In this document: one piece after another, positions 602 to 54,573 of the stretch
How positions within the stretch are numbered: position 1 is the first letter of the stretch
Layout of the letters: each line of letters begins with the position of its first letter
NCBI GenBank assembly: GCA_905160935.1
Contig: CAJHZI010000822.1
Coordinates: 270,001-334,000, forward strand
Direction of reading: 5' to 3'
DNA length: 64,000 nucleotides
DNA from: Enchytraeus crypticus
Taxonomy: Eukaryota > Annelida > Clitellata > Enchytraeida > Enchytraeidae
Notes under the pieces: model-generated
Seen by the model: the letters and a program-made list of their open reading frames with translations, nothing else
What the model was told of the DNA's origin: nothing
Databases searched by the model: none
Made by a program: the position numbers and the translations under genes

Positions 602-3600
602 TGACAGCGGCGGCTCAGAACTCTGGTCACCAGGTGGAGCCGATAGACGTGGATGCTCTGACAGACAGCGCGGAGGAGGCTGAGGCGGTGGAGAACAATG
701 CTAGACGTGAGGAGACATGCAGGAAGCCTGTCGCTAAGAAGAGCACGGCCAAGATGAGCTCCTCCGTGGCACACGCCGAGTCCAGCGGCAGACAGAACGG
801 CTCAGTGCAGAAGAGTTTCGCTAAATCCAGTTAGTACTGGTTCTGTTGTGTGTGAGGTGTTTACAACAACAACAACACTGAATAAACTAACTCAGTGGTT
901 GTTGTTGCTGTTATTATTTCGTATTGATATTGTTGTTAAGGACAGAGAGGATTTGAGACAGTCTATTCTATCTATCCCGACCCTGGTGAAACTGGGATTC
1001 CAGGGAGGATGATATTGGTATTATACTTATTATTATTAGTCTTATTTTTATTGTTATTATTATGATTATTACTTTTATTATTATTGCTATTGTAATTGTT
1101 ATTATTACTTTTACACCATTGAGTCCCGGACACTGAACAATTTAGCAACTGGTAGCTGCATGTGTCTTAAGAGGCAACATCCTCTAAGCTGTAGCAAGAC
1201 ATGGCGTGTAATGATGCTGATATTATGTTCAGTCTGCCGTGTTATTGTCTATGAGGTTATTTTAGCGGCCTTTTTCTTTTAACACTGGGATTTGAATTGA
1301 CAACATCCACTTCTCAGCAATAATAAAAAAAGTTTAACATCCGTTTCCTCATACAAGGATGATGTCGGGGACGTTAATGCAAGCGTTCATTCGACTACCC
1401 TAGCGGTACATTTATAAGTTAATTTACCTTGTGGTTTTGTCGCTTAGATTCTGACAGGGGTCTTGGAAGACTCTGTAATATTAAATCCCCTCAACTCAAC
1501 AAGATAGGCCAGTCCCTCTTCGGTATGTACCCTCCTAGATCTCTGTCTCTCTGTGTCTATGTGTGTGTGTATGTGTAGCTGTGTGTGTGTATGTGTGTGT
1601 ATGTGTGTGACAGTCTCTCTACAGTATATATCCAGCCAGCTTTGTCTGTGTGTGTGTGTTTGTGTGTCTGTATGTGTATGATGTGCATTTGCATGTATAG
1701 AATGAATTCTACAATCACTGAATGAGGCTATATCTAAACTCTTAATTCCTGTAAAATCTCAATTATCGTTTTTTTCTTTTATTTCATATTTCCACAAGAT
1801 TAATATCTCAAGCCTAGTCTTGACCTAAGCTGCTAATATTCTCTACTACCAAATCAAATTTCTTAATACTTAGATCTGACCTTGGCGGGCTATTGAATAC
1901 TTATTTTACCCTATATATACATTGTGTATTTTTTCATGGACCTATGAGTAACAGTGCTTGTCTATTGTTTGCATGGACCTATGAGTAACAGTGCTTGTCT
2001 ATTGTTTGCATGGACCTATGAGTAACAGTGCTTGTCTATTGTTTGCATGGACCTATGTGTAACAGTCAGTGCTTGTCTATTGTTTGCATGGACCTATGAG
2101 TAACAGTGCTTGTTTATTGTTTGCATGGACCTATGTGTAACAGTCAACCATCTATGTTCGCCCGCCTGTGTTAAAGACACTGAAGTGGATCCATGGGAAC
2201 ATCGTGGAAAAAACCCGCTGCTATTTCCTCTGCTCATGGGCTGGGAAAGGTTTGTGGAATTACCCAGTGTTTAATTTTAGAATTTTTATTTGTAATTCGT
2301 GTGGATCTATTAAGGATTGATATAGTTCTTATATTAATATATTAATTGAATGTTTCCATCTCATGTAATTGAAAAGAATTTAAATCTTGATTTAGCTCTC
2401 CATTTACTCTCCCACTCAATGCAGAGCACACCTTTGATCAGCCATTACTAGATATGATTGATTGACAGCCTAATTAAATGTTTGTGTGATTGATTGATTG
2501 ATTGAATGTTTGATTGATAAATTTGACTGACTGACTGATTTATTTGCCAGTTATTTGATTGATTGATTGACTGATAGATTGATTTATTAACTAATCCATT
2601 GACTGATTGATTGATAGAGTGATTTATTAGCTAAGCCTTTGATTGACTGATTGATTGATTGAGCAGGCAGTTGGCTAAGCAGAAGCCCTATGGCAGAATG
2701 TCAGTGTGGTACCGGGCGCCGTGTGGACGGAGACTGAGGAACATTGCGGACATTGACCGCTACCTGGTGCAGACACAGACCCGTCTCACCATAGATCTGT
2801 TCAGCTGTGACCCTCACCTGCGTGTAGACACTGAATACGTGCCGGTCAAGGTCATTAATCAATCAATCAATCAATCAAACATTGAGTGGCCGGTGTTGTG
2901 ATAAATAATAGTTAATAAATACTGTTGGTTGGAAACTTGTTTTGTTAGGTTTTGTTGTATTTAATGATTTCCTGATAATTAGAGACTAAACGTCCATTAA
3001 CAAGTCATTCCTATCTGTGGCTAATGTGTGATTTGATTGATTGGCTGGCTGATTACTGATTGATTGATTAATTGATTGACTGATTAATTGATTGACTGAC
3101 TGATTGATTTACTAATTGGTTGATTAATTGATAAGTTGAATGATTGGTCTATACTGTGATTTATTGATTGATGAACTGAAGTGTACTCACATTGATCTGA
3201 TCTATTAGTTAAGTGTATGATAGATTTATGATTTGACAGATTGGTTAATTGTTTGATTGATTATCTGACTGATTTATAGTTTGAAGGATTCCTTTATTAA
3301 TTAATTGACTGGTTGAATGATTGATTGATTAAATGACTGACTGAATGATAGATCTACTGATTGATGGATTGATTGATAAATTAAATGACTGAATGAATGA
3401 TTGAATTATTGTTTGATGGATTGATTGATAAATTAAATGACTGAATGAATGATTGATCTATTGATTGATGGATTGATTGATAAATTAAATGACTAATTGA
3501 ATGATTGATGGATCGAATGATTGATTGATTGATTGAATGATTGATTGATTAATTAAATGACTTATTGATTGATTAATTAAATGATTGATTGATTTTCCCT

Positions 3601-6349
3601 GACATCATCCCTGGATGAGGAAACGTACTTTAAACCTTTATTATAAATATTATTAATTGATTGATTGGGGGTGCAGACATTCTGCGACATAGAGGACCTA
3701 TCATACGGCAAGGAGACGATAGCCGTGCCTGCGGTTAACGCGTATGACAGAGCTTACCCCGACTACTTCGAGTACTCCAATCAGCGCATGCCTTCTGAGG
3801 GTGTCAATCTCAATCTTAACCCCGCCTTCCTCGTGGGCTGCGACTGTACGGACGGCTGTAGGGTAAGACTGTTGGTAAAAGCTGGTAAAGCTAAGGTTAA
3901 CGTCAGTTTCCTCACTCGAAAGCGAAGTCAGTGACGGGTGAGCCCAGGATTTGAATCCGCACGTGCTTATCCGCGGGCTAATATCTTACCGACTTCGCCA
4001 CTGGCTCCACCCAGTGTTGCAACTTTGATCTTAACAATATGCTGATGGTCGAGTGGATAGCACGTTGGCTTGTTGAGCAGGGGGTTATAGGTTTGAATCT
4101 TAGTCGAACCGTCTCTGATAGTGCCTTCGGTGATATGCAAACAGACATTAAACTTAGCTTTATAGAATTATGATAATTATAATTATGATAATTATGATAA
4201 TTATGATAATTCTATTTATTATGATGATAATTATTTAAACTGGGATTTAGGGGAAGATGATGATGATATGATTATTATTGTAATAATAATAATTATTATA
4301 ATTATTATTATTTTTATAATTACATTTTGTATTATTATTATTGTAATTTATTATTAATTAAATTGAAATTGTGAAGGAGGGAGAGAATGTTTTGCAGTGA
4401 ATGGTTGTATAACAATCAATGTCTTCCTGCGGGTTAGTGGCTGTGGTTAAAATGGAAGGGGATGTGGGGGAACTCAGTTCCCCTAGCTCATATATTTCTG
4501 AGATGCGTTCCCCTGCCAGGGGCCCATATTGGATACTAGGAGATCTCTAGATATATTACAGAGGACCCGAATATTCTGACCGTTTCCTAGCTCTTAGTTT
4601 CAGTTTTAACCATTGATTGATTGATTAATTTATATATTGATAGATTAATTGATTTGCTTGATTAACTGATAGATTGATTGATTGATTGACTGACTTATGG
4701 ATGGATTGATGGATTGATTGATTAATTGATTTATATATTGATAGATTAATAGGTTGATTTATTGATTGATTTATTGATCGACTGAGTAACTGATTGATTG
4801 ATTGATTGACTGATTGATGGATTGATCGATCGATCGATTGATTGGTTGATTGATTGATTGATTTACGTAGGTGAGATCTAAGTGTCGCTGCATACAGATG
4901 ACTGTAGAGGCGACCACGTGGACAGCTGATGGTAAACTGAACCCTGATGCAGGCTACCATAATAGACGTCTAAATGACCAGCTTCTTACTGGGTCTGTCT
5001 CTCTCTCTCTCCGTATCTGTATCTCTCTCTATCTCTCTGTCTGTCTCTCTATCTCTCATGTATGTATGAACCGATATGTGTACATGTATGTATAAACGTT
5101 TATGTACATGTGTGTGTACATGGATTTGTGCATGTATGTTTATCGGTATTTTATGCATGTATATGTTTGTTTGTATACATGTATGTGTATGTATATGTGT
5201 GTGTATGTGTAGGATCTACGAGTGTAATGTGAACTGTAAGTGCGACTGTCGCTGCGTGAACAGAGTTGTACAGAACGGTCTACAGCTGAGACTTCAAGTC
5301 TTCAAGACTGAGCACAAGTAAGAGTCTACGTCTTCCTCATTCTGCTCCTAGCTTATATACAACTTGTGACTACTGTCACAGGCCATGGTTTAGTCGATGA
5401 CTTGTTGGCAAGGTGTTGCAAAGCGGATCAGTAGTTGCAGGGTTCAAATCTGGTTAAAATCTCACCGTCACTCACTTTCTTACTTAAGGGTTCAAATCTG
5501 GTGCTCTCCTTTGACTAATACGCTATCGAGCAGGAAACTGACGATAAACTTGACATTTTGACTTTCAACGTCTTAATTATTCACTTTTAATTAACGCGAT
5601 TGTCTGATTCCACCGACGGGTAATGTTAAGTGACTAGTGGAGTAAAAGATAATTATTAAATTATTTAATTTTTATTATTATTTAATTTAATTAATTAAAT
5701 TATTAATTGAAGATAATTATGATTTTTACCTTTAAGCTTCTTTTGCTGACACATCAGAGTAAGTAACTATAATGACCAGTAGCAGGCTGTTGAACAAATG
5801 TGGTCCAGATGCTTTACTTTGTACGTCATTACTTCGAATGGTGGCGATTGATTTGATATATTGATTTCTTGATTGATTAATTGTTTGATCAATTGATATA
5901 TATTGATTGATGTTTTGTCTGATCAATTTAATTTATTTATTAAAGCTCTGATGGTTTGATTGATTGATTTAGTGATTAATTTATTGATTGATTGATTGTA
6001 GAGGGTGGGCACTGAGATGTCTGGATGATATACCTGCGGGAGGCTTTGTCTGTATCTACGCTGGTCAGCTCCTCACTGAGAATCTTGCTGATAGGGTCTG
6101 TTGCTCTCTTTACTCTCTCTCTCTCTCTCTAAACTCTCTCTCTCTCTCTAAACTCTGTCTCTCTCTCTAAACTCTGTCTCTCTTTCTCTCTAAACTCTGT
6201 CTCTCTCTAAACTCTGTCTCTCTCTCTCTCTCTAAACTCTGTCTCTCTCTAAACTCTGTCTCTCTCTCTCTCTAAACTCTGTCTCTCTCTCTCTCTAAAC
6301 TCTCTCTCTAAACTCTGTCTCTCTCTCTAAACTCTGTCTCTCTCTCTCT

Positions 6350-6387
<38 letters not shown>

Positions 6388-7532
6388 AACTCTGTCTCTC
6401 TCTCTCTAAACTCTGTCTCTCTCTCTCTCTCTCTAAACTCTCTCTCTCTCTAAACTCTGTCTCTCTCTCTCTCTCTAAACTCTCTCTCTCTCTAAACTCT
6501 GTCTCTCTCTCTCTCTAAACTCTCTCTCTCTCTCTCTCTACTCTACTCATCGCCTTTACAGATAGTCTTTCTATTGAACTAGTACAAATTAGTGAATATA
6601 TGCATCATTGATTGATTGATTGACTGATTGATTGGTTGATCGATTGATTGATTGATGGATTGAATGATTGACTGATTGATAGATTTACTGATAGGATGGT
6701 AAGGAGTATGGAGATGAGTACCTTGCTGAACTAGACGACATAGAGGTCGTGGAGGCTGATTGATTGACTGATTGACTGATTGATTGACTGATTGATTGAC
6801 TGATTGACTGTTAGGATGGTAAGGAGTATGGGGACGAGTACCTCGCTGAACTAGACTACATAGAGGTCGTGGAGGGAACGAAGGAAGGCTACGAGAGTGA
6901 TGTTGTCGAGGATTTTGATGATGTGGAGGAGGTGAGCGGAGCTTGGAGGGAGGAGGAGTCTAAGGCGGCAGAGGGCAGGGATTCAGGTAGAGCGAGGGCG
7001 GGGCCTAGGCATGCCGGGTCAGTGAGGTCAAAGGCTCAGAGCAGCAGCGTGGCTGAGAGTAGGAAGTCTGAGGAAGAGAGATACGACTCCGATAGGTTAC
7101 TCTACCTCTCTCTCTGTGAACCTGCTGGTCTCTCTGTCTGTTCACTATCTCAATGCCATATGGCATTGCCATAGTAGAATGCGATGCCATTTGGTATAGT
7201 TGGATACAATGCCATTTGATATAGTAGGATATGTTGCAATTTGGTATAGTTGGATATGTTGCAATTTGGTATAGTTGGATATGTTGCAGTTTGGTATAGT
7301 TGGATATGTTGCAATTTGGTATAGTAGGATATGTTGCAATTTGGTATAGTAGGATATGTTGCAATTTGGTATAGTTGGATATGTTGCAATTTGGTATAGT
7401 AGGATATGTTGCAATTTGTACGCTGTCTCTATTATCTGCTTTTTTCTTTGCTTCTTTGCATTTATTTTTATCTCTGTCTCACTCTCTCTCTATTTTTTGC
7501 TTTCCTCTTTGTTTCTTCACAGTATACTTTAG

Positions 7533-7588
<56 letters not shown>

Positions 7589-7931
7589 CTATACATTTAT
7601 TCTCTATTTCTTTTTGCATCTCTTCATCTCTCTTTATTTATATTTCTTTTTCTTTAGCTCTCCTTGCTTATCTTTCTCTCTTTTTTGTTGTACTTTCGTC
7701 TAATCTGTACTGTTGTTACTTTGTTATACTTAGCTTTAGTTCTTGTCAACAAGACCTTCACAGATGATATAAATTATGCACTTGATAAATAACGGATGAC
7801 TTTCCATACAAGGTAATCTACAGTATCTTATACTGTAATATGCAATTGTGTACAATTGATGTATCTATTGCACAGCCTAACGGCAGATCCATGGCATATA
7901 GCTCTTCCAACTGTGTATAATTGTGACATTG

Positions 7932-7998
<67 letters not shown>

Positions 7999-8023
7999 TA
8001 TCTATATATAGTTATATATACCT

Positions 8024-8057
<34 letters not shown>

Positions 8058-8060
8058 CAG

Positions 8061-8121
<61 letters not shown>

Positions 8122-8646
8122 ATATATATATAGCTAATGTTAACGTCAGTTTCCTCACTCGAAAGCGATGTCAGTGACGGGTGAGCCCAGGTTTTGAACC
8201 CCACACATACTGATCTGCAGTCGAATACCTTACCGACATCGCCACTGGCTCCAGCCAGTATAAATGTATTTCATGATGCTGCACTCAGCTGTCTATGCTC
8301 ATATCTAGCCCGTGTACTAACTACGGTGTTTCTCTCTTCTAAATCTCTCTGTGTTTATTTACAGTTCTTTTGAGCTGTACAAGAAAACGGGAAAAAAGAA
8401 GACAGGAAAGAGGTTTGTGCTCTTCACCGATCGACTGATTTCTTGTGAAATGTTTCCAGTAGCATATATTCTAGTACACTTGCGTCAGAAGCAGGAGGTC
8501 TCTGATTTCAAGAGCAGCCGATCCTTATCTGACTTTATTTTCAATCAGACGTTAAATGCGGCGTCATGGCTTTATGTTGTAGAAATGACACTGAAGTTGT
8601 TTCTCTAGCATTTCTAGCTGTTATAGTCTCTTTCTCTCTCTCTATT

Positions 8647-8680
<34 letters not shown>

Positions 8681-8701
8681 CAGTATATGTATGTATGTAT
8701 G

Positions 8702-8751
<50 letters not shown>

Positions 8752-11700
8752 TCTCTCCCTCTCTTTCTCTGACAAAATACAATTGAACTTGACAAAATAC
8801 AAATTATTTAGGATTAGAAATATATTATTATAGGATACAGAGGTAGAGAGATGGTAACACTGTTTTAATTTGATTTATAAAGAGGTTGTAACCCTGTTTT
8901 AATATGATTTGTCGCAGGAGACGTAAGAAGAGAGATGGTAACACTGTTATAATTTGATTTATCGCAGGAGACGTAAGAAGAGAGATGGTAACGCTGTTGA
9001 CAAGGTCGCTCGCACTAGTGCAGCGCAGAAGACCGCGAGAGAAGCAAAGGGGCGACGAAAGTAAATCATATGATTTGTTCTTAACTCCTTCTAACAATCT
9101 ATCATTCCTCAGTTCATTAGAGGATTTCCTTTGTTAAATCCTCTTTCTTCACAACTCTTTATTCAGACTAAATTCTACTAAAAGAAATTATCTCAGTGAT
9201 ATTAATAATCCCGTCGTTCATTGACATCATCCTTGTATGAGGAAACGGACGCCAAACCTTTATTATTACTATTGTTATTTATTCATTCAGTTGTTATTTG
9301 TAATCCTGTGGTTATTGGTAATCCCGTGGCTACTGGTAATCCCGTGGTTATAATTATTTATTTATATATTTATCTCGTGGTTATTGGTAATCCCATGGTT
9401 ATTATTATTGATTCATTTATATATATTAAGCCCGTGGTTATTGGTACTCCCTTGGTTATTATTATTGATTTATTTATATATTAAACCCGTGGTTATTGGT
9501 ACTCCCATGGTTATTTGGTATCCCATGGCAATCAGCGATGTTTGCAGTTATATGATTTAGATATTGTGATGTATACTTCCATACTATGATGCATAGTTTG
9601 AAGCAGAGCATTTCTAGCCATACCCCACCTGCACGAAATACATTTAAAAATTATCTTATAAAGCTAAAAGCTAAGGTTAATGTCAGTTTCCTCACTCGAA
9701 GGCCATGTCAGTGACGTATGAGCCCAAGATTTGAACCCCGCACCTACTGATCCTCGGTCGAGTATCTTACCGATTTTGCCACTGGCTCCTGCCATATATA
9801 TTATAGGAGGTATCTACGAAACACGAAGAAATTACATGAAATTTTAGTTGCAGTCAGGCTAAATCTGTAGACCTTAGAATTTTAATTAGAATTAGACTTT
9901 ATAATCTATTTTGAATTACATAAAGTTGCTTCTTCTCTTCATTGAATATATTTAGTAATCCCGTGGTTATTGGTAATCCCGTGGCTATTGGTAATCCCGT
10001 GGCTATTGGTAATCCCGTGGTTATGGGTGATCCCGTGGCTGTTGGTAATCCCGTGGTTATTGGAAATCCCGTGGTTATTTGGTAGTCCATAGTAATCAGC
10101 AATAGTTGCTGTTATATGATTTAGATGCTGTTGCTTTTCCTCATCATTGCTGATTGTACTGGTCTATGTAACTGAACGGTTGTTGACGAGTAGGAAGCTG
10201 GCGGGGGAGGAGTCGTGGATGGTGGGCGGGGACTCGACGGATGATTGGCAGACAAAGCAGGAGTCACAGCGCCGCACAGAGGCGTGGGTACAGGAGGTGA
10301 GTCAGCGAGCCAGCGACGCCATCTTGATCAGCGACGATGAGTCTGACACAGCTGCTGAAGCTGCTCCAGCTGCTGCTGCTGTATCGGCTACAGCTGCTGC
10401 AGGGCTGCGGGAGGCAGCAGAGCCTGAGCACACTGGCAGCTGTTCCAGTAGTGCTGCTGCTGCTGATCAACCAGCAACAGCTGCTGCTGCTGCGTCAACA
10501 GCTGCAGGAAATCCTCCGCTAAGTTCTTTAGACGTCTCTGCGGCTGGTGTCGCTTCCACTCATGTAACGTCTAACTCCGCTCTCCTCCGCCGCAGCTCCT
10601 CCGACAAAACTCACGACAGCTACGACGAGGACGTAGAGCCGTCAGACACGGATGACGAGGCAGCGGCGGGTTGTCGCAACCGCAATGATCTCATCCCGGC
10701 GTCTCGGCTCAGCGGCGACATCGACGAGGCCCGGCGTAGCCACAGCGACGACGACGATGTTGAACCAGATTCTCCGCTGTCACCTCAGTCTAATCTACGG
10801 GACTCTAGAGTCCCGGAGAGAGTCGATCCAGATTCACCGAGAGTTCCTCCAGGCTGCGACAAATCTCTCAGGTTCACGTTCAAGAGAGACTGCGGCGTAA
10901 CCGGTCTCGTGGGAGAAGCCGCCGGTGTGGACGAGGCTGGCTGGGTCGTTGAGCCGGTCGATAAGTTGGGTTTAGAGGAGTCGTCGGTTGATGTGGTGAC
11001 GGACTCAGAATTAGGTCAAGTTGTCGGTGAGTCGGAATTAGGTCAAGTTGTCGGTGAGTCGGAATTAGGTCAAGTTGTCGGTGAATCAGAATTAGGTCAA
11101 ATTGTCGGTGAATCTGGAATAGGTGAAGTTGCGTGTGAATCAGAATTAAGTCAAGATATTGGCGAATCAAAGTTAGATCATTCTAAGTGCGAGACAAGAA
11201 TGAACCATAATATTGATTTCGACAGTGAAACGGCAGAAAAATTTAGATTTGACGATAAGGAATCAAAGAGTGAGTTAACACTTGTGAAAACTGACATAGC
11301 TAAGCCGGGCATGTATAAACAAGATATGTATAAGTTAGAGGCCGGTGACTCAGGACTAAATAAGTTAGACTTAGACCAATCTGATGAGTTGGTCTCAGTT
11401 AAGTCATATAGAACGGACACTGATAAGCCAATCTTAGACAACTTGAACTTTTGCAAATCAGCTACAGACTGTGACATAGAGTTTAAGCTTGCACGCTTTG
11501 ATAAGGTTGATAAAACTGATAAAGTTGATACAACTGATAAAGTTGATACAACTGATAAAGTTGATACAACTGATAAGGTTGATAAAACTGATAAAGTTGA
11601 TACAACTGATAAAGTTGATACAACTGATAAAGTTGATAAAACTGATAAAGTTGATACAACTGATAAGGTTTATAAAACTGATAAGGTTTATAAAACTGAT

Positions 11701-14700
11701 AAGGTTTATAAAACTGATAAAGTTTATAAAACTGATAAAGGTGACGACCCTGAAGACTCGAAGCCGCTATCAGTGAACTCCGATAAGCAAGTGTTTGATA
11801 AACGAGCCTCCGCTGTACCTAATGGTCTGCATCCTGAAACGTTGAAAGCCTGCGCTAAAGAGAATCGCGCAGTTACGCCATCGGTCGATGCGAACAATGA
11901 TGCTTGCAGGGTGAAATTAGACCTGCAGAAGAAGGATGAGGACGCTATAGCAGATATGAAGGATATAAAACCTGCGGAGGGATGTGAAGAGTTAATTGTA
12001 AAGTCAAATAGAGAACTGGAACAATGCGAGGCTGAAGATAGCGACGATAGGATACGTAGCGTCAAGATGAAAGAGGACCTGGGTAAAAGCGACATTAAGC
12101 CGGAGTCAGACATCGAGATAAAAGACGTGATGTCGCTCGACGAAGACAACGATATTACATTCCTGAACGACTCGAGGATTTCCGCTGATTGCACGAGGAA
12201 GACCGAGTCGTTAGACGGTGATGACAACAAGGCGGAGTCTGTAGCGGAGATGAAAGAAGAAACCGATGAGGATTTTCTGATCTCAGACGTCCACACCAGC
12301 CTGGAGGTCGTTAGGATGTGCCGCGGCTCAACCGAATCGGAATGTTGCCGGAGCGAAGATGCCGCGATGAGCTGCGATGAATCGATGGATACGACAGACG
12401 CCGGAGAGCGGCTAAGCCGTCAGGTTTTAACTCAGCCGCTCTGTGCTTCGGGTAGTAGCCGAGGGCTAGGACACGACGTACGCACAAGTTTACCTGAGAG
12501 AGCAACAATGAAACGACCGTTGAGCGCCATGCTGAACTGTAGAATGGCTGTAGTCAAATCTAAATTCAAGTCATCGTCTAGTCAATCTGACAGCGGCTTA
12601 ACTCTGAACGGCGTAGCAGCCGGTATAGCGAGTAGCGGCATGTTAGCCGATGGTGATGCGGAGGCGTTGGAGAATGATGGAGAGGTGGAAGGACATGGAG
12701 GAGATATTGATCGGGAGACGCTTCATATAAACAACATGCCGGGCTGTGATATATCTACGTCGTCTTTGTGTATCGTCTCAGTAGCCTGTGATATAAGTGG
12801 CACGATATGTAACAACGGCACGGTGTGTGACAGAGGCAATGTGTGTGACAGCGGCACGGCGTGTGACAACGGCACGGTCTGTGACAATGGCACAGCGTGT
12901 GACAATGGCACAGCGTGTGACAATGGCACGGCATGTGTCAGTGGCACAACTTGTGACCGTGGCACGTTGTTAAACAGCAGCACGTTTAGGATTGTTATTA
13001 GTAAAGACTATGGTGCTAGTCCTGATGTTAGTACGTCTTGTTTACCTCTCACATCTACTGCTAACTCTATGGAGACGAGCATCTCTGCAGAACATCCTGC
13101 GGCTGATGAGTCAACAACAACTACGGCAGCCAATCACATCGCTCCGTTATCCTCTTTGGCTGCACCGCTAGCTGCTTCCCAACTAGCTGCTGCCCAGCTA
13201 GCTGCTACCTCGTTAGCTGCTGCCTCGTTAGCTGCTACCTCGTTAGCTGCTACATCGCTAGCTGCTGTAACATCTACTCAATCTCATGGTACAGCTCCTG
13301 CAGAAGAAGTTGTTGTCAGGTCTAAAACTGGTGCTACTGCTGCTGTGGTAGCTGCTAACTCAGCTACAGCAGCTAAAATCAATATCTCAGCTGTTGCAGC
13401 AGCAGCGAACAGTGCTGCAGCAGCTGACAGTGTAGCAGCAGCTGACAGTGTAGCAGCAGCTGACAGTGTAGCAGCAGCTGACAGTGTAGCAGCAGCTGAC
13501 TGTGCAGCAGCAACTGACAGTGTAGCAGCAGCTGTCAGTGCAGCAGCTGCTGCATCAGTCAGCGCAATGACTGCTGTTTCAAATATTGAAACAAATATGG
13601 CGTCTGCCGGTGAGCAAGAGATAGGGGAGGGGCTTATAGAGAAGAGGGTGGAGCCTGAGAGCAATGATGTAGACGTAATGGACCTCTGCGATGAGCTGGG
13701 GGTGGAGCTAGAAGCTGTCAATCAAAGCAGCAGTCCTGTTACTGCTGGCCAGGGGGTGGAGTCAGGGACTGTCAATCATGTTGACGAGCAGGCTACGGGT
13801 GGGCGGGATCTAGAGGAAGATATGGAGATAGTGGGCGTGGAGATAGCAGGAGGTAGGGCTTGTCGATGTGCTGTAAAATCGTATTACTTATCTCTCTCTC
13901 TTTCTCTCTTAGTGCACTGCCTACTGGCAGGTCCATGGTATATAACGCCTTCACATATTTCTATCCCCTACCTTTCTCTTCATATCAACATCTCTCTTAG
14001 TGCACTGCCTACTGGCAGGTCCATAGTATATAACGCCTCCGCATATTTCTATCCCCTACCTTTCTCTTCATATCAACGTCTCTCTTAGTGCACTGCCTAC
14101 TGGCAGGTCCAAGGTATATAACGCCTCCACTCTTCTCTATTTTCTGCCTTCCTCTTCATTCCACATATGAGTGGGTCTTTAAATCATCTAACATACCTAA
14201 TCTCGACCTGCCCCTGCGTTTTACTTATATTATACTGTTATTACTATAATTAGGATAAGCAGAATTGTTTTCTCAGGGAATGACGCCCCTGCCCTGTAAA
14301 TGTTAGTCAAAGCTGAGGAAGGCATAAGGAGCCCACCTCTTCATAAGCAGAATCGCCCAAGAAATGGTATATAATAACAAGAATGAGTAGCCTATTGCTA
14401 GAGAATTTAAAGTTTCGTTCATATTTAGACATAAAGAAAAAAATCAAAGATAGAGAAGAGTGGAAGCGTTATTTTCGACGGACCTGCAAGTAGGCAGTGC
14501 ACTGAGAGAGAGATTAGTATCATTTGTTGTTGTGTGTCATGTTAATATTCTCATGTGATCGGCTGGTAAAATAAGCTGGTAAAGCTAAGGTTGACGTCAG
14601 TTTCCTCACTCGAAAGCGATTAAGTGACGAGCGAGCCCAGGATTTGAACCCCACACATACTGATCAGCGGTTGGCATGTCTCTTTGACTTGTCCTAAAAT

Positions 14701-17700
14701 CCCAGTTTAGCCAGGGTCTGGACTAGTGTTATTATTACTAACGAGATTTTAAATAATAACTTATTATTATTATTATTATTATTATAGCAATTAGTACTGT
14801 AATTTGTTATAATAATTGTTGTTGTTCCACTCTACAGCACATGTTTTTTTCAGATCTTTTGGGGTTAATTGATTTGTAGTGACATGTGATGGGGGGACGT
14901 CCCTAACATCATCCTTGTTTGAGGAAACGGACGTTAAACCTTTATTATTATTATCTACAGTAGATAAGAGTGATTAATGTTAATGTATTACTAGTATTAT
15001 TCTAGTTGTTGTTGTTGTTGTTGTTGTTTGCAGTGGATGAGAGGACTGGGGGTGGATGCTGTATTAATGTTATTATTAATAACAATAATAATTTATTATT
15101 ACTATTATTTTAGTTCATGTTGTTGTTGTTGTTGTTACAGTAGACGTGAGGGCGGGGTGTGGGTGCTTGACTGTTGTTGTTGTTGCTACAGTAGCTGAGA
15201 GGACGGGGTGTGGGTGCTTGACTGTTGTTGTTGTTGTTGTTGTTGTTATAGTAGACGTGAGGGCGGGGTGTGGGTGCTTGACTGTTGTTGGTGCTACAGT
15301 AGACGTGAGGGCAGGGTGTGGGTGCCTGACTTGTTGTTGTTGTTGCCACAGTAGACGTGAGGACGGGGTGTGGGTGCTTGACTGTTGTTGTTGTTGTTGT
15401 TACAGTAGATGAGAGAGCGGGGTGTGGGTGCTTGACAAGGTCGCACTCAGCTCAGTACTGGAAGCTGCCTGACCCCACAGCCAAGAACACTCTGCCCACA
15501 GCCAGGAAGAGAACACGAAGACCTGCAGGACATCACAAGGGTTAGCCATCCTCTAGCTACCATCTCTAGCTGCTCTATAGCTGCTCTCTCTAGCTGCTCT
15601 CTAGCTACCATCTAGCTGCTCTATAGCCATCCTCTACCTACCATCTAGCTGCTCTCTAGCTACCATCTAGCTGCTCTATAGCCATCCTCTACCTACCATC
15701 TAGCTGCTCTATAGACATCCTCTAACTACCATCTAGCTTCTCTATAGTCATCCTCTAGCTACCATCTAGCTGCTCTATAGCCATCCTCTAGCTATCATCT
15801 CTAACTACTCTCTCTAGCTGCTCTCTCTAGCTGCTCTCTCTAGCTGCTCTCTCTAGCTGCTCTCTAGCTGCTCTCTCTAGCTGCTCTCTAGCTGCTCTCC
15901 CTAGCTGCTCTCTCTAGCTGCTTTCTAGCTGCTCTCTAGCTGCTCTCTCTCTAGCTGCTCTCGCTAGCTGCTCTCTCTCTAGCTGCTCTCTCTAGCTGCT
16001 CTCTCTAGCTGCTCTCTCTAGCTGCTCTCTCTAGCTGCTCTCTCTAGCTGCTTTCTCTAGCTGCTCTCTCTAGCTGCTTTCTAGCTTCACATAAATATAA
16101 ACACTCATTTTTGTTTGGACTGAGCAAGTGGCAAGTCGCTAATTAAGTAGGAACTGTAGGTTTAGGGTTTAAATCCAGTCACTGTTAAATGGATTAATGA
16201 CTAACGATTATGCAGATGCACTAAAATGAAAGATATAATCATGGATGATCGATTTCTATGTAATGTCTATTAGCGGCGGATATTTTCACGTGGATTGACT
16301 GTCCTTATCTTTATAAGATTGGTTTTTAATTCTTTCTGTTGATTTCTGTTCTTATTTCTCTGGAGATAAAACAATAAACTTATATTGGTAAATCAGTGCC
16401 CAGTAGAGTGCTCGATATTGTCATGGACTGTGACTGAGCTGTTGTTTGTCGTACAGACTCGTCGGGAGAGAAGGTCAGGTTCATAAGAACTCGGTCGTTC
16501 TTCGGCGAGGAGGGATGCTACATCATGGACGCCAAGTCCATCGGAAACCTGGGCCGCTACCTCAACGTACGAACTCTTCTCAGTGGCAACACTGTTCTAC
16601 TTGTTATTTGTTTAGCTGCAGCCTTTAGCAAGCTGCCCAACGCTGTTCTACTTGTCATGCTATGTGATCATCCTGGGGCTGGTTCCAGCCAAAGATTTCT
16701 CTATGATGTTCCTTCACAAAACTCTATTCTGTGTTTCCTTGATGTTCATTCTTCTTCTTCCTTCTGTTCTTCCTTAAATGTTAACTCCAGCAGCCTTCAA
16801 GTCTTCTACGAGGCAGTCCTTCCATCTTCTTTTAGGTCTTCCCGCTCTTCTCTTGCCGTCTGCTTTATGGTTAAAAATTTTTTGAGGGTTTTCAGTAATC
16901 TCTCAAGTAGAACACTGTTCTACTTCTTATTTGTTTATATGCAGCCTTTAGCAAGCTGCCCAAGTCGTCACTGTTGCTGATACGCTTATTCTAATTAGTT
17001 TTTTTTATTACTAGTCCTCTATTTCTTTTCTTGCATTCAAAGTGCAGAACGGAGTTGATTAAGTGAATGGATTGATTGATTGATTTGCTTTATTTATTAA
17101 TTTATTTATAAATATATTTATTGATGTACACATTGCATTGATTGATGTATTGTTTTATAATTAATTGATTGATTGATTGATTGATTACAGCACAACTGCT
17201 CTCCTAACATATTTGTACAGAACATGTTTGTGGACTCACATGATCTCAGGTTTATTGATGGATTGATTGATTGATTACAGCACAGCTGCTCTCCTAACAT
17301 ATTCGTACAGAATGTGTTCGTGGACACGCATGATCTGAGGTTCCCGTGGGTTGCGTTCTTCGCATACGAGTACGTACACAACTTATCTACCGCTTCAACG
17401 TCCACGAAAACATCTGTGCTTGACAAAACAAAGCTTACAGCTTTGATTGATTGACTGATTGATTGATGGATTGATTGACTGATTGATTGATTGATGGATT
17501 GATTGATGGATTGACTGATTGATTGATTAATTGATGGATGGATTGATTGTCTAATTGTGTTGCTTAATGAGTGCATACTCGAATAGTTTGTGGGCTTGGC
17601 TTGAACTTGTCAGTAAGTTGTTCGTCTACAGGTCAGCAGGTGCAGGATTCAAATCCAGAGCCGATCCTGTCACTGATCTGTCGCTTAGGCTTAGGACTGT

Positions 17701-18766
17701 CGCTTAGGCTTAGGCTCTAGTAAGAGGTTTTCTATCGCAACACTGCTTTCACTTTGGCTTAGTCTTTTGTGGTCTAGTTCTCTATCTCAACACTGCTTTT
17801 ACTTGGGCTTTTGTAGTCTAGTTCTCTACCTAAACACTGCAGTCACTAGTCTTTGATCTTGATTGATTGGCCCTGCATTGCTTTTGATCATTTTCTCTAC
17901 GTCTGTGTATTGGATTGCTAGACTATTGTGCTAATTGCATCGTTATTATGTGCATCATGTGTCATCATCGTGTACTGATGCATCGTGTAATGCATCATGT
18001 GCTGATAGAGATTCCTAAACTTTATTTCTCTCCAGTGTTCTGCCAAGTGGCAGGTCCAAGGTACATATTCCTACTCACAGTCCGCTATCATGCTCTAAAA
18101 AGAGCACTCTATCGATCTACAGGTTAAGCTCTTCACAGAAGGCTCGTAAAAAAGCTGGTAAAGCTAAGGTTAACGTCAGTTTCCTCATTCGAAAGCGTTG
18201 TCAGTGACGGGCAAGCGCAGGGCTTGAACCCGCACATACTGATCCGCGGTCGAGAATCCTACCGACGTCGCCACTGGCTCTGCCTCATCCACTGATAATG
18301 TAGCTTATCGCTTGGACTAATTTAACCTCTGAGGTGGTTACCCATTGTCTTCCTCAGTTGTAGCCTAGCTACCGTTGCTGTAGCGTGATGATTGCGCTGT
18401 GTTGTATAGAATATTTCAAAAGCGTATGGGTAACGTCATGAAGTTATAAATGGCAGATCCTGAGGTGAATTGAATCCTCGTGGGTTCGAATCCCAGCCGC
18501 GCTGATCTGAGAGTAAAATCTCGGACATTCACTGGACTGGTTACACGGAAAATGGTCTAAATTGCCCAACGGTTTAAATATATGGTATCGAAAGTGGCAG
18601 GTATCAACATAGTTGATCTTTCACTATAATGTGTGTTTTTTATGGCAGACACATAAAGGCTGGCACAGAACTCACGTGGGACTATAACTACACTGTAGGC
18701 AGTGTGCCGGGCAAAGTGCTGCACTGCTACTGCGGGTCGTCTGAGTGCAGGGGTCGCCTCCTCTAG
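602..18766 (+). CDS. SETDB1: SETDB1/eggless-type histone H3K9 methyltransferase, 3' part
   Basis: Nuclear enzyme that trimethylates H3K9. Sixteen phase-consistent exons can be traced: 602-829 (start uncertain), 1448-1522, 2144-2249, 2667-2850, 3677-3862, 4871-4992, 5213-5317, 6002-6095, 6815-7095, 8365-8412, 8968-9060, 10194-13852, 15406-15540, 16457-16566, 17281-17369, 18649-18766 (TAG). They give about 1876 residues. An MBD lies near residues 136-197 ([11 protein letters not shown]). Pre-SET cysteines follow ([22 protein letters not shown]) at about 198-330, then the first SET half (GFVCIYAG). A very long acidic insertion comes next, then the second SET half from about 1772 with [19 protein letters not shown] and post-[16 protein letters not shown]. 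The AdoMet-binding and catalytic motifs look intact. The split SET is diagnostic of the SETDB family; the MBD and order match SETDB1. The insertion (about 1380 aa) is several times the vertebrate one. Tudor exons should lie left of the window. Confidence 0.95.
1328..1376 (-). mobile_element. Retroelement 3'-end fragment, family G
   Basis: Reverse-complement copy of the family whose fullest example is at 48765-48900. Its core on the other strand reads GAGGAAACGGA then TGTTAAAC. It lies inside a SETDB1 intron. Confidence 0.6.
1930..2143 (+). repeat. 39-bp tandem repeat ending at a SETDB1 acceptor
   Basis: About five to six units of a 38-42-bp repeat built on TGGACCTATGAGTAACAG. The last unit supplies the true acceptor, after which exon 2144-2249 begins with TCAACC. 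Two units read GTGTAACAGTCA, so they carry the acceptor AG plus the first exon bases. This is one of the exon-edge duplications described in the findings. Confidence 0.85.
2459..2660 (+). repeat. (TTGA)n tract at a SETDB1 intron 3' end
   Basis: Degenerate GATT/TTGA tetranucleotide repeat running almost to the acceptor GAGCAG at 2661-2666. There is no long polypyrimidine tract in front of this acceptor. Confidence 0.85.
3035..3596 (+). repeat. Long (TTGA)n tract in a SETDB1 intron
   Basis: About 560 bp of degenerate GATTGATT repeat with higher-order units, for example GATTGATAAATTAAATGACTGAATGAATGA repeated near 3375-3500 (given here only as a period of about 60 bp). It is complementary to a short AATC run at 2856-2878 just after the donor of the same intron. 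Confidence 0.85.
3597..3650 (+). mobile_element. Retroelement 3'-end fragment, family G
   Basis: Carries the family core CCCTGACATCATCCCTGG then GAGGAAACGTAC and a TTTATTATAA tail. It is inserted inside the intronic (TTGA)n tract shortly before an acceptor. Confidence 0.65.
3881..4012 (-). mobile_element. tRNA-derived SINE, family A
   Basis: Read on the minus strand, it starts GGAGCCAGTGGCGAAGTCGG (box A region), then GGATTCAAATCC (box B), TCACTGACTTCGCTTTCGAG and AAACTGACGTTAACC. It ends in AGCTTTACCAGC. It begins only 18 nt after the donor at 3863, so the intron opens almost directly into a SINE. Confidence 0.85.
4036..4165 (+). mobile_element. tRNA-derived SINE, family E
   Basis: A second tRNA-like family: GGTCGAGTGGATAGCACG resembles box A and GGTTTGAATCT resembles box B, followed by CAGACATTAAACTTAGC. 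A related copy is at 34503-34632. Confidence 0.6.
4441..4614 (-). mobile_element. MITE-like element, family H
   Basis: Reverse-orientation copy of the 166-bp element at 28151-28316. It shares GTTCCCCTAGCTC, GGGGCCCATATTGGATAC and a terminal TTTTAACCATTG. Confidence 0.65.
4615..4865 (+). repeat. (TTGA)n tract before a SETDB1 acceptor
   Basis: Degenerate GATTGATT repeat ending in GATTTACGTAG at 4860-4870, the acceptor of exon 4871-4992. Confidence 0.85.
5391..5560 (+). mobile_element. Old SINE family A remnant
   Basis: Weak match to family A: GCGGATCAGTAGTTGCAGGG, then TTCAAATCTGG and GGAAACTGACGATAAAC. A box-B-like segment appears twice. It is much more diverged than the other copies. Confidence 0.4.
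6108..6545. repeat. CT-rich array with AAACTCTGT punctuation
   Basis: Variable CT dinucleotide runs interrupted every 15-35 bp by TAAACTCTGTCTC. It occupies most of a SETDB1 intron. Confidence 0.9.
6695..6757 (+). pseudogene. Partial upstream copy of SETDB1 exon 6815-7095
   Basis: Copy of the acceptor and first roughly 60 nt of the next exon, coding [20 protein letters not shown]. It differs at four codons from the true exon, three of them synonymous. After GTGGAG it breaks into a (TTGA)n tract (6758-6812), with no donor consensus at the break. Confidence 0.85.
7170..7420. repeat. 24-bp tandem repeat
   Basis: About ten units of GATATGTTGCAATTTGGTAT plus AGTT/AGTA in a SETDB1 intron. It is open in several minus-strand frames only because the unit length is a multiple of three; I see no gene. 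Confidence 0.9.
7535..7585. repeat. (CT)n microsatellite
   Basis: Pure CT run followed by T-rich intron sequence to about 7740. Confidence 0.9.
7925..8130. repeat. (TA)n microsatellite
   Basis: Long TA dinucleotide repeat with occasional C and G, directly abutting the SINE at 8132. Confidence 0.9.
8132..8257 (-). mobile_element. tRNA-derived SINE, family A
   Basis: Minus-strand copy with box-B-like GGTTCAAAACC and the GTTAACATTAGC end. It sits in the SETDB1 intron before exon 8365-8412. Confidence 0.85.
8850..8967 (+). pseudogene. Partial copies of SETDB1 exon 8968-9060
   Basis: At 8918-8950 the acceptor GTCGCAG and the first roughly 33 nt (coding RRKKRDGNT) are repeated before the true exon. 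An older, more eroded copy of GAGATGGTAACACTG lies near 8848-8865. The spacer TAATTTGATTTATCGCAG is repeated with them, so the unit is intron end plus exon start. Confidence 0.8.
9226..9275 (+). mobile_element. Retroelement 3'-end fragment, family G
   Basis: Core GAGGAAACGGACG then AAACCTTTATTATTA tail. It is followed immediately by a tandem repeat. Confidence 0.6.
9285..9540. repeat. TAATCCCGTGGTTATTGG tandem repeat, first block
   Basis: About 18-bp units with insertions of ATTATTGATTTATTTATAT. The same unit recurs at 9955-10090, on the far side of a SINE. Confidence 0.85.
9661..9793 (-). mobile_element. tRNA-derived SINE, family A
   Basis: Minus-strand copy inserted between the two blocks of the TAATCCCGTGG repeat. 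Box B reads GGTTCAAATCT. Confidence 0.85.
9955..10090. repeat. TAATCCCGTGGTTATTGG tandem repeat, second block
   Basis: About seven 18-bp units that end 100 bp before the acceptor of the large SETDB1 exon at 10194. Confidence 0.85.
10999..11110 (+). repeat. 27-bp coding repeat in SETDB1 (SELGQVVGE)
   Basis: Four to five units coding SELGQVVGE inside the giant exon. The period is a multiple of three, so the frame is kept. The units diverge gradually downstream ([27 protein letters not shown]). Confidence 0.9.
11500..11745 (+). repeat. 18-bp coding repeat in SETDB1 (TDKVDT)
   Basis: About 14 units coding [12 protein letters not shown] or TDKVYK. The array is lysine- and aspartate-rich and probably disordered. 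The other frames are open only because of periodicity. Confidence 0.9.
12785..12965 (+). repeat. 18-bp coding repeat in SETDB1 (CDNGTA)
   Basis: About ten units coding [12 protein letters not shown], placing a cysteine every six residues. This is an unusual composition for the normally disordered SET insertion. Confidence 0.9.
13185..13535 (+). repeat. Alanine-rich coding repeats in SETDB1
   Basis: Two arrays: 15-bp units coding [10 protein letters not shown] (13185-13265) and 18-bp units coding DSVAAA (13425-13535). Both keep the reading frame. Confidence 0.9.
13890..14165 (+). mobile_element. Repeat family D, three tandem units
   Basis: Three head-to-tail units of about 88 bp, each starting CTTAGTGCACTGCCTACTGG then CAGGTCCATGGTATATAACG. 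They lie directly after the donor of the giant SETDB1 exon. Single diverged copies occur elsewhere in both orientations. Confidence 0.8.
14430..14515 (-). mobile_element. Repeat family D fragment
   Basis: Reverse copy: AGAGAAGAGTGGAAGCGTTA, then GGACCTGCAAGTAGGCAGTG and CACTGAGAGAGAG. Confidence 0.7.
14573..14675 (-). mobile_element. SINE family A, truncated
   Basis: Minus-strand copy that loses its box A end after the box B region. Confidence 0.8.
14860..14956 (+). mobile_element. Retroelement 3'-end fragment, family G
   Basis: Longer copy, starting near GATTTGTAGTGACATG, with GGGACGTCCCTAACATCATC and a TTTATTATTATT tail. Confidence 0.7.
15034..15405 (+). pseudogene. Six partial copies of SETDB1 exon 15406-15540
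   Basis: Copies start at 15034 (older), 15141, 15192, 15252, 15300 and 15352, each after a CAG or TAG acceptor. Each carries about 30 nt coding [11 protein letters not shown], then breaks into (TTG)n. The true exon starts TAGATGAGAGAGCGGGG at 15406 and continues into [13 protein letters not shown] instead of the repeat. Seven near-identical acceptors in 400 bp should compete unless strongly ranked. Confidence 0.9.
15546..16085. repeat. CTCTAGCTGCTCT tandem array
   Basis: Starts a few bases after the donor at 15541. It evolves from CCATCCTCTAGCTACCATCT units to CTCTAGCTGCT units of 12-14 bp. Confidence 0.9.
17191..17253 (+). pseudogene. Partial upstream copy of SETDB1 exon 17281-17369
   Basis: Acceptor plus about 60 nt coding [21 protein letters not shown], compared with [19 protein letters not shown] in the true exon. 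Of eight codon differences, five are synonymous. It breaks into TTGATTGA instead of coding PWVAFFAY. It duplicates the catalytic core motif of the SET domain. Confidence 0.9.
18030..18125 (+). mobile_element. Repeat family D fragment
   Basis: Diverged copy: CTGCCAAGTGGCAGGTCCAAG, then an AAGAGCACTCTATCGATCTA segment shared with the copy at 55755. Confidence 0.55.
18150..18283 (-). mobile_element. tRNA-derived SINE, family A
   Basis: Full-length minus-strand copy. Box B reads GGTTCAAGCCC. Confidence 0.85.
18410..18632 (+). mobile_element. tRNA-derived SINE, family F
   Basis: About 220 bp with GGGTTCGAATCCCAG (box B), GAGAGTAAAATCTCGGACAT, CCTAACGG-like and GGTATCAACATAGTTGATC. It ends about 16 nt before the acceptor of the last SETDB1 exon (18649), so its tail probably supplies the branch-point region. 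Confidence 0.8.
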
Positions 18767-23980: not shown

Positions 23981-27193
<3,213 letters not shown>

Positions 27194-39380: not shown

Positions 39381-42300
39381 ATGTCTGCTGACGATTCCCT
39401 GCAATACGATTATCGGATCGGAGATTTCGTTTGGGCTAAGATGAAGGGATTTCCTCCCTGGCCGGGCCGGATTATGGAGCCTAAGCCCGATATGAAGGTG
39501 ACGAAAATAAAGGGAAAGCAGCTGGTGTTTTTCATGGGTTCTGAGAATTACGCATGGATTAACGAAGAGGTAGTGTGGCCGTATACAGAGTTTAAAGACA
39601 AGTATGGATCGCCGTCGAAACCCCATAAAGGTGAGACGATTTATGTCAAATGAATTATTTACATCGCTCTATATTTCGCCTTTGCCTAAAATGAAGGTGC
39701 AGTGAAAGGTAGCATGATTGGTACCTAGAGTGCTCTAGAAATACATGTTATTCTCCAATACTTTGGACTGAATTTCTGGATTTTGGAATTTGCACCGTTT
39801 TTGGACCTTCTTTTTGCTCGCCGGCTTGATTTTGTCTCAACAGTGCTCGATGTTGTCATTGATGACTGTAGCACTCTAATTGTTGTTGTTGTTGTTGTTC
39901 AGTGTTGATATTTTACTGCTGTAAAAAAGTAAGCATGCATTATAGTGAAATGATCCACTATGTTGATATATGTCACTTTTAATGAGTGTGTAACAGTATT
40001 TTCTATCCTAAACGGCTTAATCGACGTCAAATCTGAATAATCGTCCCCATTGCTTTGTTAACATACAGAAATGTAAACACAATTTGAGTTGTAGAGTCTA
40101 ATTAAATAAATAACGAATTTAACGTCCGGTTCCTCGCCATAAGGCAATGTCAGGGAATAAATAATTGTAACATTTAAGGTGTTTTCTTTCAGATTTCATC
40201 GAGGGAGTGCGGCAAGTGGAGGAGCAATTAAAGGCCAACCCCCCTTCAGCCATTCCCCGCAGGGCCCGTACCCCCTCCCCCCCTCGCTCCACCACCTCCT
40301 CCGTCGACCAGAAATCATCTGGAAAGAGTAGAAAGCTCTCCGTCAGTTCAGCGACTAAAACAACCGCGCTATCAAAGACCCAGCAGTCTACTCCTCTGTC
40401 CACCTCGACTGGAAAGAAACGTGCCGCCACTGACGAAAAGAAGAACTTCAAGTCGGGGAAGTCTCTGGCAAGCCCCGGCAAATCCCGTCTGTTGGAAAGA
40501 GACTTCAGTCCTAAGAAGCTGAAGATGGCGGGAGAGAACAGGTTGCTGGAATTCGGTTCCGAATCGGACTACGGAGATACTTTGTCGTCAGCTAATCATG
40601 CTGCGGCTCTCTCGGAGCCGTCGACGTTCATGCCTGATATTCTGCCGCTGTCGTCGCCAGATCAGATGCTTGCGAAGAAGAACATTGTGCCGACGCCGCT
40701 CAAGATCGGTTTCCTCGGCATCGGAATCATGGGGAGCGGTATGGTGGAGAACCTGCTCAAGTCTGGGCACGAAGTTACGATATGGGTATGACGCTCGATT
40801 AGTTAGAGTATGAGATGTTGGATTGGTCAGAGATATGGGTATGAGACGTTAGATTAGTTAGAGATATGGGTATGAGACGTTAGATTAGTTAGAGATATGG
40901 GTATGAGACGTTAGATTAGTTAAAATATGGGTGCGAGACATGATTGCTTAAAATATGTATATGAGAGGTGTAATCGGTTAAAATATGGATATATGAGGCG
41001 TATGATTGGTTAAAATATAAATAAGATACTTAAGGTTGGTTAGAATATGTGTATGAATCATATGATTGTTTAGATATAAAGGTAAGAGATGTTTGATTGG
41101 TTAGTGATATGAATATGACGTTGTTGCTGTAGCTTAGAATCCTAGCTATGCTAACTGATGTTGTTGTTGTAGCTTAGAATCCTAGCTATGCTAACTGATG
41201 TTGTTGTTGTTGCGTAGAATCGTAACAACGCTAAGTGCCGGGAGCTAGTTAACGAGGGAGCGTTGAAAGGCAGTGACCCCGCGGAAGTCGTGCAGTCATG
41301 TGACATCATCTTCTCGTGCGTCAGTGATGGACCAGCGCTCAAAGATCTCGTGTTTGGCAACTCTGGCGTGCTTCAAGGCATCTCTGCCGGCAAGGTGCTG
41401 CACTCTGCCTTGTCACGATGTTAATTAAATAATTAATTAAATTAAAATAATATGATTTTAATTAATTAGTTTAATTAAATAATTTTATAAACAGTTTAAT
41501 TCTGCAACAGTCTGAGCATTCCTTATAATGGATTTAATTGATTGACTGACTGATTGACTTGCTGATTGACTGGTTGATTAATTGATTGACTGACTGATTT
41601 ATTGACTGTTTGTTTGTTTGATTGAATGACTAATTGATTGATTGACTGACTGACTGAATAATTGTACGTTTGATTCATTGATTGACTGATTGATTGATTG
41701 ATTGATTGTTTGATTGACTGACTGATTGATTGACTGTTTGTTTAAAATTGATTAACTGACTGATTGATTGATTGATTGACTGATGCAGTATTTTGTGGAC
41801 CTGTTGATTGACTGACTGATTGATTGATTGATTGACTGATTGATTGATTGATTGACCCAGGGATTTGTGGACCTGTCCACTGTGGACGTGGAGTCTATAC
41901 AGGATGTTAACGAGGCGGTGGTGACGAGGGGCGGCAGGTTCCTCGAGGCACCGGTGATCGGCACGAAGGAACTCGCTAAGCACGGTCAGCTGCTCGTGCT
42001 GGCGTCCGGTGATAAGACTCTTTACGATGACTGCTACTCGTGCTTCCAGGTGAGCAAACTGTGCCGTTATCGGTGCTTTGTGCCTTTATCAGTGTGTTGT
42101 GCCGTTATCAGTGTGTTGTGCCTCTATCAGTGCATTGTGCCGTTATCAATGTGTTATGCCGTTTTTAGGGTTAAAAGAATGCGTTGTGCTGGTACCTTTG
42201 TACTCTATTTTTCACACTATTTTTACATTTCATTCTGTTAGCCTGTATTCCTTATATTGTGCAGTTGTACATTGTATATACTATTTCTTGTATTGTATTT

Positions 42301-44300: not shown

Positions 44301-44768
44301 CCAATCTATATTCTACAATAAGGAGTAGAAAGGCAGACCCATATTATGGGTTAAACTTGCCTATCGATAGAGGGTGGAAGGAGACTGGGAATAGAAATAT
44401 TTACATCGAACCTATAAGTAGGCATAACTCTAAAGACAGAGCCAGTTTTGTACAAATCTGAAATGGCTCTGGCAATAGCCTTGAACATCTTGTAATGCTA
44501 ATTTCTTAACAGGCATGAGGTTGAAGGCTTATTTCTAGAGCAAAGTGGTGACGTGTGTGATAACATATTTGAATCTTTTATCATATATGCTGAAACATTG
44601 ATATTTTTACTTATGATTGGGGCACAAAATTTATCGGTGTCGTTGCTCTTTTTAGCTTGGAGATAGTTGAAACAAAACACGGAAGTTCCTCCATCTGTAT
44701 TTTAAGAACAGGAAATAAGTTTCAGAAGTAAACAAGTCGTTGTTTTATTATTAAATTAAATCCCAAAA

Positions 44769-54573
<9,805 letters not shown>

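Follow-up and report, generated by a model that had tools for sequence, protein, structure and literature searches.

The window analysed here is a stretch of 64,000 nucleotides of Enchytraeus DNA (positions 270001-334000 of contig C719), and the genome-wide part of the work covered 524 Mb in 802 contigs. The window contains four genes, SETDB1, ARL1, GLYR1 and PSMC6, all on the plus strand, with 34 complete introns of 220-1553 nt. Models of the four genes were built by hand, the sequence being read over most of the gene-bearing stretches, and all of them splice into open frames when the last acceptor copy is used. The product of the first gene has an MBD, a pre-SET and a split SET domain, a make-up that we take to be that of SETDB1. 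The spliced ARL1 and PSMC6 products align with solved ARL1 and PSMC6, respectively, and the GLYR1 product comprises a PWWP domain and a dehydrogenase part that matches N-PAC.

At a number of exons in these genes, the adjoining intron carries further copies of the exon edge. The original prediction had named 17 such sites, 14 at acceptors and three at donors. A real exon copy is present at 13 of them, 12 on the acceptor side and one on the donor side; three of the other four are real arrays that include at most 7 nt of exon, and the last is a match that does not rise above chance. In SETDB1, exon copies are found at the predicted acceptor sites 298-520, 6695, 8918, 15034-15405 and 17191, all of them, like every copy described below for the window, on the plus strand. 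The first SETDB1 exon in the window [602-829] has, in the gene model, its true acceptor at 601/602. By sequence comparison, an outer copy of this acceptor and exon start is located at [336-353] (17/18 nt), and an inner copy of the exon start, in which the AG is lost, at [457-508] (46/52 nt). The start of exon 6815 is copied at [6695-6755] (57/61 nt, in a unit of about 120 nt), that of exon 8968 at [8918-8948] (30/31 nt, unit of 50 nt, with a joint that lacks a TTGA or TTG array) and that of exon 17281 at [17191-17252] (54/62 nt, unit of 90 nt). Five close copies of the start of exon 15406, beginning at 15141, 15192, 15252, 15300 and 15352, fill the segment [15141-15382], and an older copy can be recognised by eye at 15034. 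An exon copy had also been proposed at 1930-2143. The array there is genuine, consisting of a 37-nt minisatellite [1922-2144] that ends at the acceptor of exon 2144 and includes it, but it holds at most 3 nt of exon.

In ARL1, the predicted acceptor sites 24857 and 26196/26287 both hold exon copies. The start of exon 24948 is copied at [24857-24887] (25/31 nt), with a weaker copy near 24741 seen by eye, and the start of exon 26374 is copied twice, at [26196-26260] (64/65 nt) and at [26287-26351] (65/65 nt, unit of 87 nt). The end of exon [25767-25960] has a donor-side copy at [25964-25997] (28/34 nt). In one attempt, a second allele of the ARL1 region was not found among the scored matches. 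Two of the predicted acceptor copies are real and short: that of GLYR1 exon 41861, predicted at 41789 and located at [41792-41804] (13/13 nt), and that of PSMC6 exon 45847 at [45730-45751] (18/22 nt). The copies predicted at 47470, 48014 and 51409 in PSMC6 repeat the starts of exon 47555 [47470-47508] (35/39 nt, unit of 85 nt), exon 48102 [48014-48051] (35/38 nt, unit of 88 nt) and exon 51526 [51409-51455] (43/47 nt, unit of 117 nt). The copy proposed at 41138/41178 in GLYR1 is a 15/20 nt match, not above chance. Arrays do exist at the two other predicted donor sites, a 31-nt array [40808-40939] beside the GLYR1 donor 40785/40786 and a 41-nt array [46795-46955] at the PSMC6 donor 46797/46798. 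They take in only 7 and 3 nt of exon, respectively, so at both donors it is not true that every copy retains 16-65 nt of the exon.

Copying in the window was measured by comparing 40 nt of the neighbouring exon with 600 nt of its own intron, the other introns serving as the null. Twelve of the 34 acceptors beat every null, and 11 are real after removal of the match at the ARL1 intron 4 acceptor (10/11 nt), which was dropped as chance. SETDB1 exon 602 stands outside the 34, since the window edge truncates its intron, and is the twelfth copied acceptor. On the donor side, 2 of 33 beat the null; the match at the PSMC6 intron 2 donor (14/17 nt) was dropped as chance, and the one kept is the ARL1 copy at 25978. 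Control 40-mers from the middle of the window exons had copies in 0 of 36 cases.

The window holds other repeats as well. The large SETDB1 exon [10194-13852] holds several coding minisatellites that keep the frame (units of 15, 18, 24 and 27 nt), which indicates that tandem duplication also takes place inside exons where the frame survives. ARL1 intron 2 contains an interspersed repeat of about 285 bp [25116-25397], which has at least 39 further matches in the genome at 87-94% identity. A recurrent element with a tRNA-like stretch, probably a SINE as judged by eye, is found in either orientation at about 9670-9790, 18150-18290, 46400-46520, 47190-47330 and 51130-51270. In PSMC6 intron 9, on the minus strand, an open frame [52136-52657] resembles by eye part of a LINE reverse transcriptase. 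Also on the minus strand, a 658-codon open frame [56467-58440], with a short repeat in which Ser, Cys, Gln and Asn abound, is probably a tandem repeat and not a gene.

Exons outside the window were identified through family searches, and their flanking sequence was examined along with them. The sample consists of 52 chaperonin exons (52 of the 57 matches listed; five with long open frames, on contigs C373, C259 and C400, were omitted), 30 myosin-head exons (those given as loci among 81 matches) and 27 proteasome exons (all 27 matches listed). Contigs C259 and C400 carry two pairs of chaperonin-like matches that score equally and stand at a constant offset, and they represent a recent duplication or an uncollapsed haplotype. 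Copying is not confined to the window: upstream copies accompany 23 of these 109 exons and downstream copies 9 of them, whereas trials with the flanks of other families gave 2 and 3 matches, respectively, in 545. Since exons match the flanks of other families this rarely, the copies are no dispersed element, and an introner-like family spread over unrelated genes was rejected on the same counts. Upstream and downstream copies were found, respectively, in 15/52 and 2/52 chaperonin exons, in 3/30 and 3/30 myosin exons, and in 5/27 and 4/27 proteasome exons. A strong acceptor excess characterises the window and the chaperonins; in the myosins and the proteasome it is weak at best.

When the four gene sets were pooled, 33 of 144 acceptors had upstream copies (76 in all) and 7 of 142 donors had downstream copies (22 in all; p = 1.1e-5), so that both an acceptor-side and a donor-side form exist. 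At most eight copies were counted per exon, and matches that start more than 15 nt inside the exon edge, exons shorter than 25 nt and flanks shorter than 300 nt were left out; this strict rule misses the case at C368:271-338. Donor copies may be undercounted in this comparison because exon borders outside the window, those of the chaperonins included, are the borders of the family matches and are inexact. With donor matches allowed anywhere in the exon, the counts become 34/143 and 10/142 (p = 1.2e-4). The donor-side form can be extensive. A proteasome-family exon at locus L066 (reverse strand, from about 590 downward) has a donor array of at least ten copies, spaced 54 nt apart and each with 42 nt of exon, and the same exon also has an acceptor-side copy.

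Tandem copies are also common within introns, and the exon edges have to be viewed against this level. In the window, non-microsatellite 40-mers from introns have a nearby copy upstream in 21% and downstream in 24% of cases, while intergenic 40-mers have a copy on either side in 13%. Exon starts (10/35) are near the intron level and exon ends (0/33) are below it. The closeness of 10/35 to 21% could suggest that plain intron background explains the copies in full, but the placement of the arrays and the distance profile show an acceptor excess, and this explanation was rejected. The placement test used the window and chaperonin genes, with introns longer than 2000 nt or shorter than 100 nt dropped. 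The remaining 68 introns contain 89 minisatellite arrays, which are present in 57 of the 68. Arrays that cross the acceptor and extend into the exon by 10 nt or more number 17, against 5.4 expected (0 of 2000 random placements were as high), and 31 arrays end within 60 nt of the acceptor or beyond it, against 14.2 expected. A single array crosses a donor, against 5.4 expected (55 of 2000 random placements were as low). In these genes, therefore, the acceptor is favoured and the donor, if anything, is spared. The distance profile, which covers the same genes and drops introns longer than 2000 nt or shorter than 80 nt, shows that 40-mers 0-100 nt from the acceptor are copied upstream in 31% and downstream in 39% of cases, and those 300-500 nt away in 5-8%. 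Two bins more than 800 nt away are high again, and these are small (25 and 11 40-mers). The fall of copying with distance may partly reflect dilution by mobile elements. Neither the enrichment of acceptors nor the peak of tandem copies near them would be expected of a duplication blind to splice sites, a point that weighs against the explanation preferred below. In the window and chaperonin genes, arrays gather at acceptors beyond random placement; an extension to exon edges in general fails on the donor side, which is not enriched.

The copies extend a median of 31 nt into the exon (15-85 nt), and their median identity to it is 94% (median difference 5.7%). The nearest copy lies 33-146 bp away in 31 of the 33 exons, and 214 and 387 bp away in the other two. 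One to eight copies were counted per copied exon, and some loci have at least eight. In 11 of the 33 arrays, which can be described as clean, the match run obtained after a shift of one unit equals the unit length within 6 nt, which is the mark of a head-to-tail duplication; the other 22 are blurred by indels, decay or the presence of several units. The clean units of 37-120 bp consist of 7-58 nt of intron end and 18-65 nt of exon start. Their joints share 0-5 nt, a microhomology that is not telling as a pointer to mechanism. The original prediction of head-to-tail tandem duplications across exon edges, above chance and recurring in unrelated genes, is upheld.

The differences between the exon and its nearest copy are distributed unevenly over the codon. 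In the 33 exons, first, second and third positions differ in 31/440, 23/433 and 55/428 cases, respectively (chi-square p = 3e-4), and in the window alone, where the frame is exact, in 9/153, 7/153 and 24/151. This third-position excess is what is expected if the copy drifts freely while changes in the exon are mostly silent, and the pattern shows the copies to be non-coding relics that drift neutrally. The reading frame shows that the last copy, which is joined to the body of the exon, is the real exon start. Of 62 acceptor copies, 58 retain the AG; this count spans 27 of the 33 exons and 62 of the 76 copies, six exons without a placed AG and copies whose alignment starts more than 8 nt into the exon being left out. 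With the AG intact at this frequency, the decoy acceptors are not obviously being removed.

Structures of this kind have been described before, so the statement in the original prediction that no such process is known does not stand. As reported for amphioxus, mirages are minisatellites that span intron/exon boundaries in the globins, Adh3 and troponin C, with similar repeats in PGBD5 (PMC3087553; PMC3902484), and the Enchytraeus arrays are likewise minisatellite-like tandem duplications across the boundary. Both forms occur in amphioxus too, on the acceptor side in BflGb6, whose units are 81-100% alike, and on the donor side in BflGb9; the units there are 10-160 bp, and splice signals are kept in many copies, as here (PMC3087553; PMC3902484). 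In their structural features, the present arrays agree with mirages: head-to-tail units of intron and exon, unit size, copy number and kept splice signals. RT-PCR or mRNA data in amphioxus are said to suggest normal splicing, and the 2010 paper considered that mirages are possibly general in cephalochordates (PMC3087553; PMC3902484). The amphioxus cases described there amount to a handful of loci, whereas in the present genome 33 of the 144 acceptors sampled are affected, with a measured acceptor bias. Among the titles and abstract openings listed from the open-licence literature, no mirages outside amphioxus were found. Intron gain by tandem duplication, as described in potato (PMC4974935) and Drosophila (PMC2891723), also involves a short duplication next to coding sequence with splice signals; however, a new intron position arises there, whereas here an existing exon edge is multiplied and the intron presumably stays put.

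Amphioxus itself, suggested by the mirage papers, was considered and rejected as the host. A search of the genome for the GFP family, run without a positive control, gave no match, and contig C802 has, by eye from translations, the mitochondrial order ND3-ND2-COX1-COX2-ATP8-COX3, which we take to fit annelids. The best-matching entries of a muscle myosin exon are ones that we take to be from scallop. Judged from these sequences, the host seems not to be a lancelet. The mirage structure is already known; the scale, the acceptor bias, the annelid-like host and the sense (TTGA)n tied to acceptors are new.

The (TTGA)n repeats are strongly polarised. The strand bias was determined in 77 introns, 34 from the window and 43 from chaperonin genes, the latter possibly with missed exons inside. 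Among perfect intronic arrays in this sample, TTGA exceeds TCAA by 153 to 3, CT exceeds AG by 25 to 1 and GTT exceeds AAC by 22 to 1, and over all perfect arrays the T-richer strand is favoured by 300 to 33. Window introns with sense (TTGA)n include, for example, [3033-3594], [4612-4863], [25508-25762] and [53860-53925]. The density of the motif TTGATTGA is 0.74 per exon over the 50 nt that precede acceptors and 0.01 per exon over the 50 nt that follow donors. Genome-wide, GCAGG follows within 10 nt of a TTGA array in 1580 cases and of a TCAA array in 108, a 14.6-fold difference in which overlapping matches are multiply counted; by strand symmetry, the TTGA and TCAA arrays themselves are equally common. 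In Daphnia introns, CT, GT and ATT likewise exceed AG, AC and AAT on the sense strand (PMC3152781). T-rich sense repeats are common to both genomes, and here TTGA dominates, by the 153 to 3 given above, and abuts acceptors. Neither the TTGA motif nor its association with acceptors appeared among the titles and abstract openings surveyed, in searches worded without TTGA itself.

Two ways of relating these repeats to the donor were considered and rejected. A bridge across the intron between donor-proximal (TCAA)n and acceptor-proximal (TTGA)n was set aside, as TCAATCAA occurs at only 0.06 per exon just after donors. For (TC)n, considered as the equivalent at donors, TCTCTCTC is most abundant immediately downstream of donors within the sample, but the signal is weak genome-wide (58 against 29 overlapping matches). 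The general form of the branch site is yTnAy. TTGA repeats contain neither AG nor GT, and each unit supplies one yTnAy word, the branch-point-like TTGAT. Tentatively, intron 3' ends could be a hot spot at which the branch region, the acceptor and the exon start are repeatedly duplicated, with (TTGA)n as serial branch regions and exon definition directing splicing to the last acceptor, a possibility to which we give limited credence. From its strict strand and place, the (TTGA)n microsatellite may serve as a splicing signal.

The mirage duplications are real, genome-wide and, in the pooled sample, biased towards acceptors. They are probably tandem duplications, similar to minisatellites, in which the repeated DNA is a short stretch across a splice site, in most cases the acceptor. 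A short segment across the site would be duplicated head to tail in a DNA event that may be slippage, template switching or the repair of staggered breaks. The upstream copies, being inside the intron, would presumably be spliced out with it and then drift neutrally, and selection against wrong splicing and frame breaks would decide which duplications survive. As for the acceptor bias, we lean towards two causes: the repeat-prone, T/G-rich 3' ends of introns may seed duplications, and an extra upstream acceptor may, as we assume, be less harmful than an additional donor downstream. That the myosins and the proteasome share the bias weakly or not at all counts against this explanation.

The original prediction attributed the copies to the exon and an adjacent (TTGA)n or (TTG)n array, between which replication would switch template or unequal exchange would occur. 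Joints do run into TTGA- or TTG-type sequence in 8 of 10 tested window exons, and copied acceptors are more frequent among those with TTGATTGA within 100 nt (13/39) than among those without (20/105). However, this association is not significant at three distances (p = 0.08-0.18; odds ratio 2.1 and p = 0.08 at 100 nt), 20 of the 33 copied acceptors lack a TTGATTGA array within 100 nt, and TTGA or TTG is absent from the joint in clear cases (SETDB1 exon 8968, C368:323-374 and C795:347-394) and from the donor arrays at L066 and L029. From the 13/39 and 20/105 counts, (TTGA)n is not needed for copying. The joining into such sequence is thus a property of most tested window exons that does not carry over genome-wide, and exchange with a microsatellite does not hold as the general cause; we regard it as unlikely to be the mechanism.

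An origin or benefit coupled to splicing or transcription, with the acceptor itself as the hot spot, through RNA-templated repair from pre-mRNA or splicing intermediates, R-loop breaks at intron 3' ends or selection for spare acceptors, seems rather improbable, somewhat more so than microsatellite exchange. It would account for the graded enrichment, which is highest where arrays span both acceptor and exon (17 against 5.4), weaker for arrays near the acceptor (31 against 14.2) and absent at donors, and for the AG kept in 58/62 copies. The copies are, however, tandem, include unspliced intron and drift as neutral DNA; moreover, donor arrays exist, one of them with at least ten copies, and two gene sets lack the acceptor bias.

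Use of some copies as alternative exons in regulated splicing is very unlikely. Most copies keep the AG, and two loci could serve in this way: in the SETDB1 array before 15406, the frame of the exon is open over at least the last two units (open reading frame 15330-15542), and the PSMC6 copy at [51409-51460] consists of an acceptor followed by a donor-like GGTGAGTTT, which makes a ready cryptic exon of about 34 nt. On the other hand, in 7 of 10 window exons the copy runs into TTGA-type sequence, which as a perfect repeat places TGA in every frame, and the copies show no coding constraint of their own. Assembly or sequencing error, by which reads would be collapsed or mis-joined, is scarcely credible: assemblers are known to struggle with tandem repeats and one amphioxus mirage was reportedly mis-assembled in the draft (PMC3087553), but the copies lie on many contigs and differ by a median of 5.7% with a third-position excess, which argues against such errors because they are blind to the reading frame.

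Tandem duplication of a short segment across the splice site, our preferred explanation, leaves the cell with the task of choosing the last of several near-identical splice sites. With dozens of arrays of differing copy number, this genome offers a natural experiment in how the spliceosome selects one acceptor when several almost identical ones lie in cis. Should roughly one quarter of the acceptors in another phylum carry mirages, short tandem duplication at splice sites would be a major force on gene structure. If they are so common, mirages would be a hazard for gene prediction and, at the same time, would readily supply new introns and alternative acceptors.
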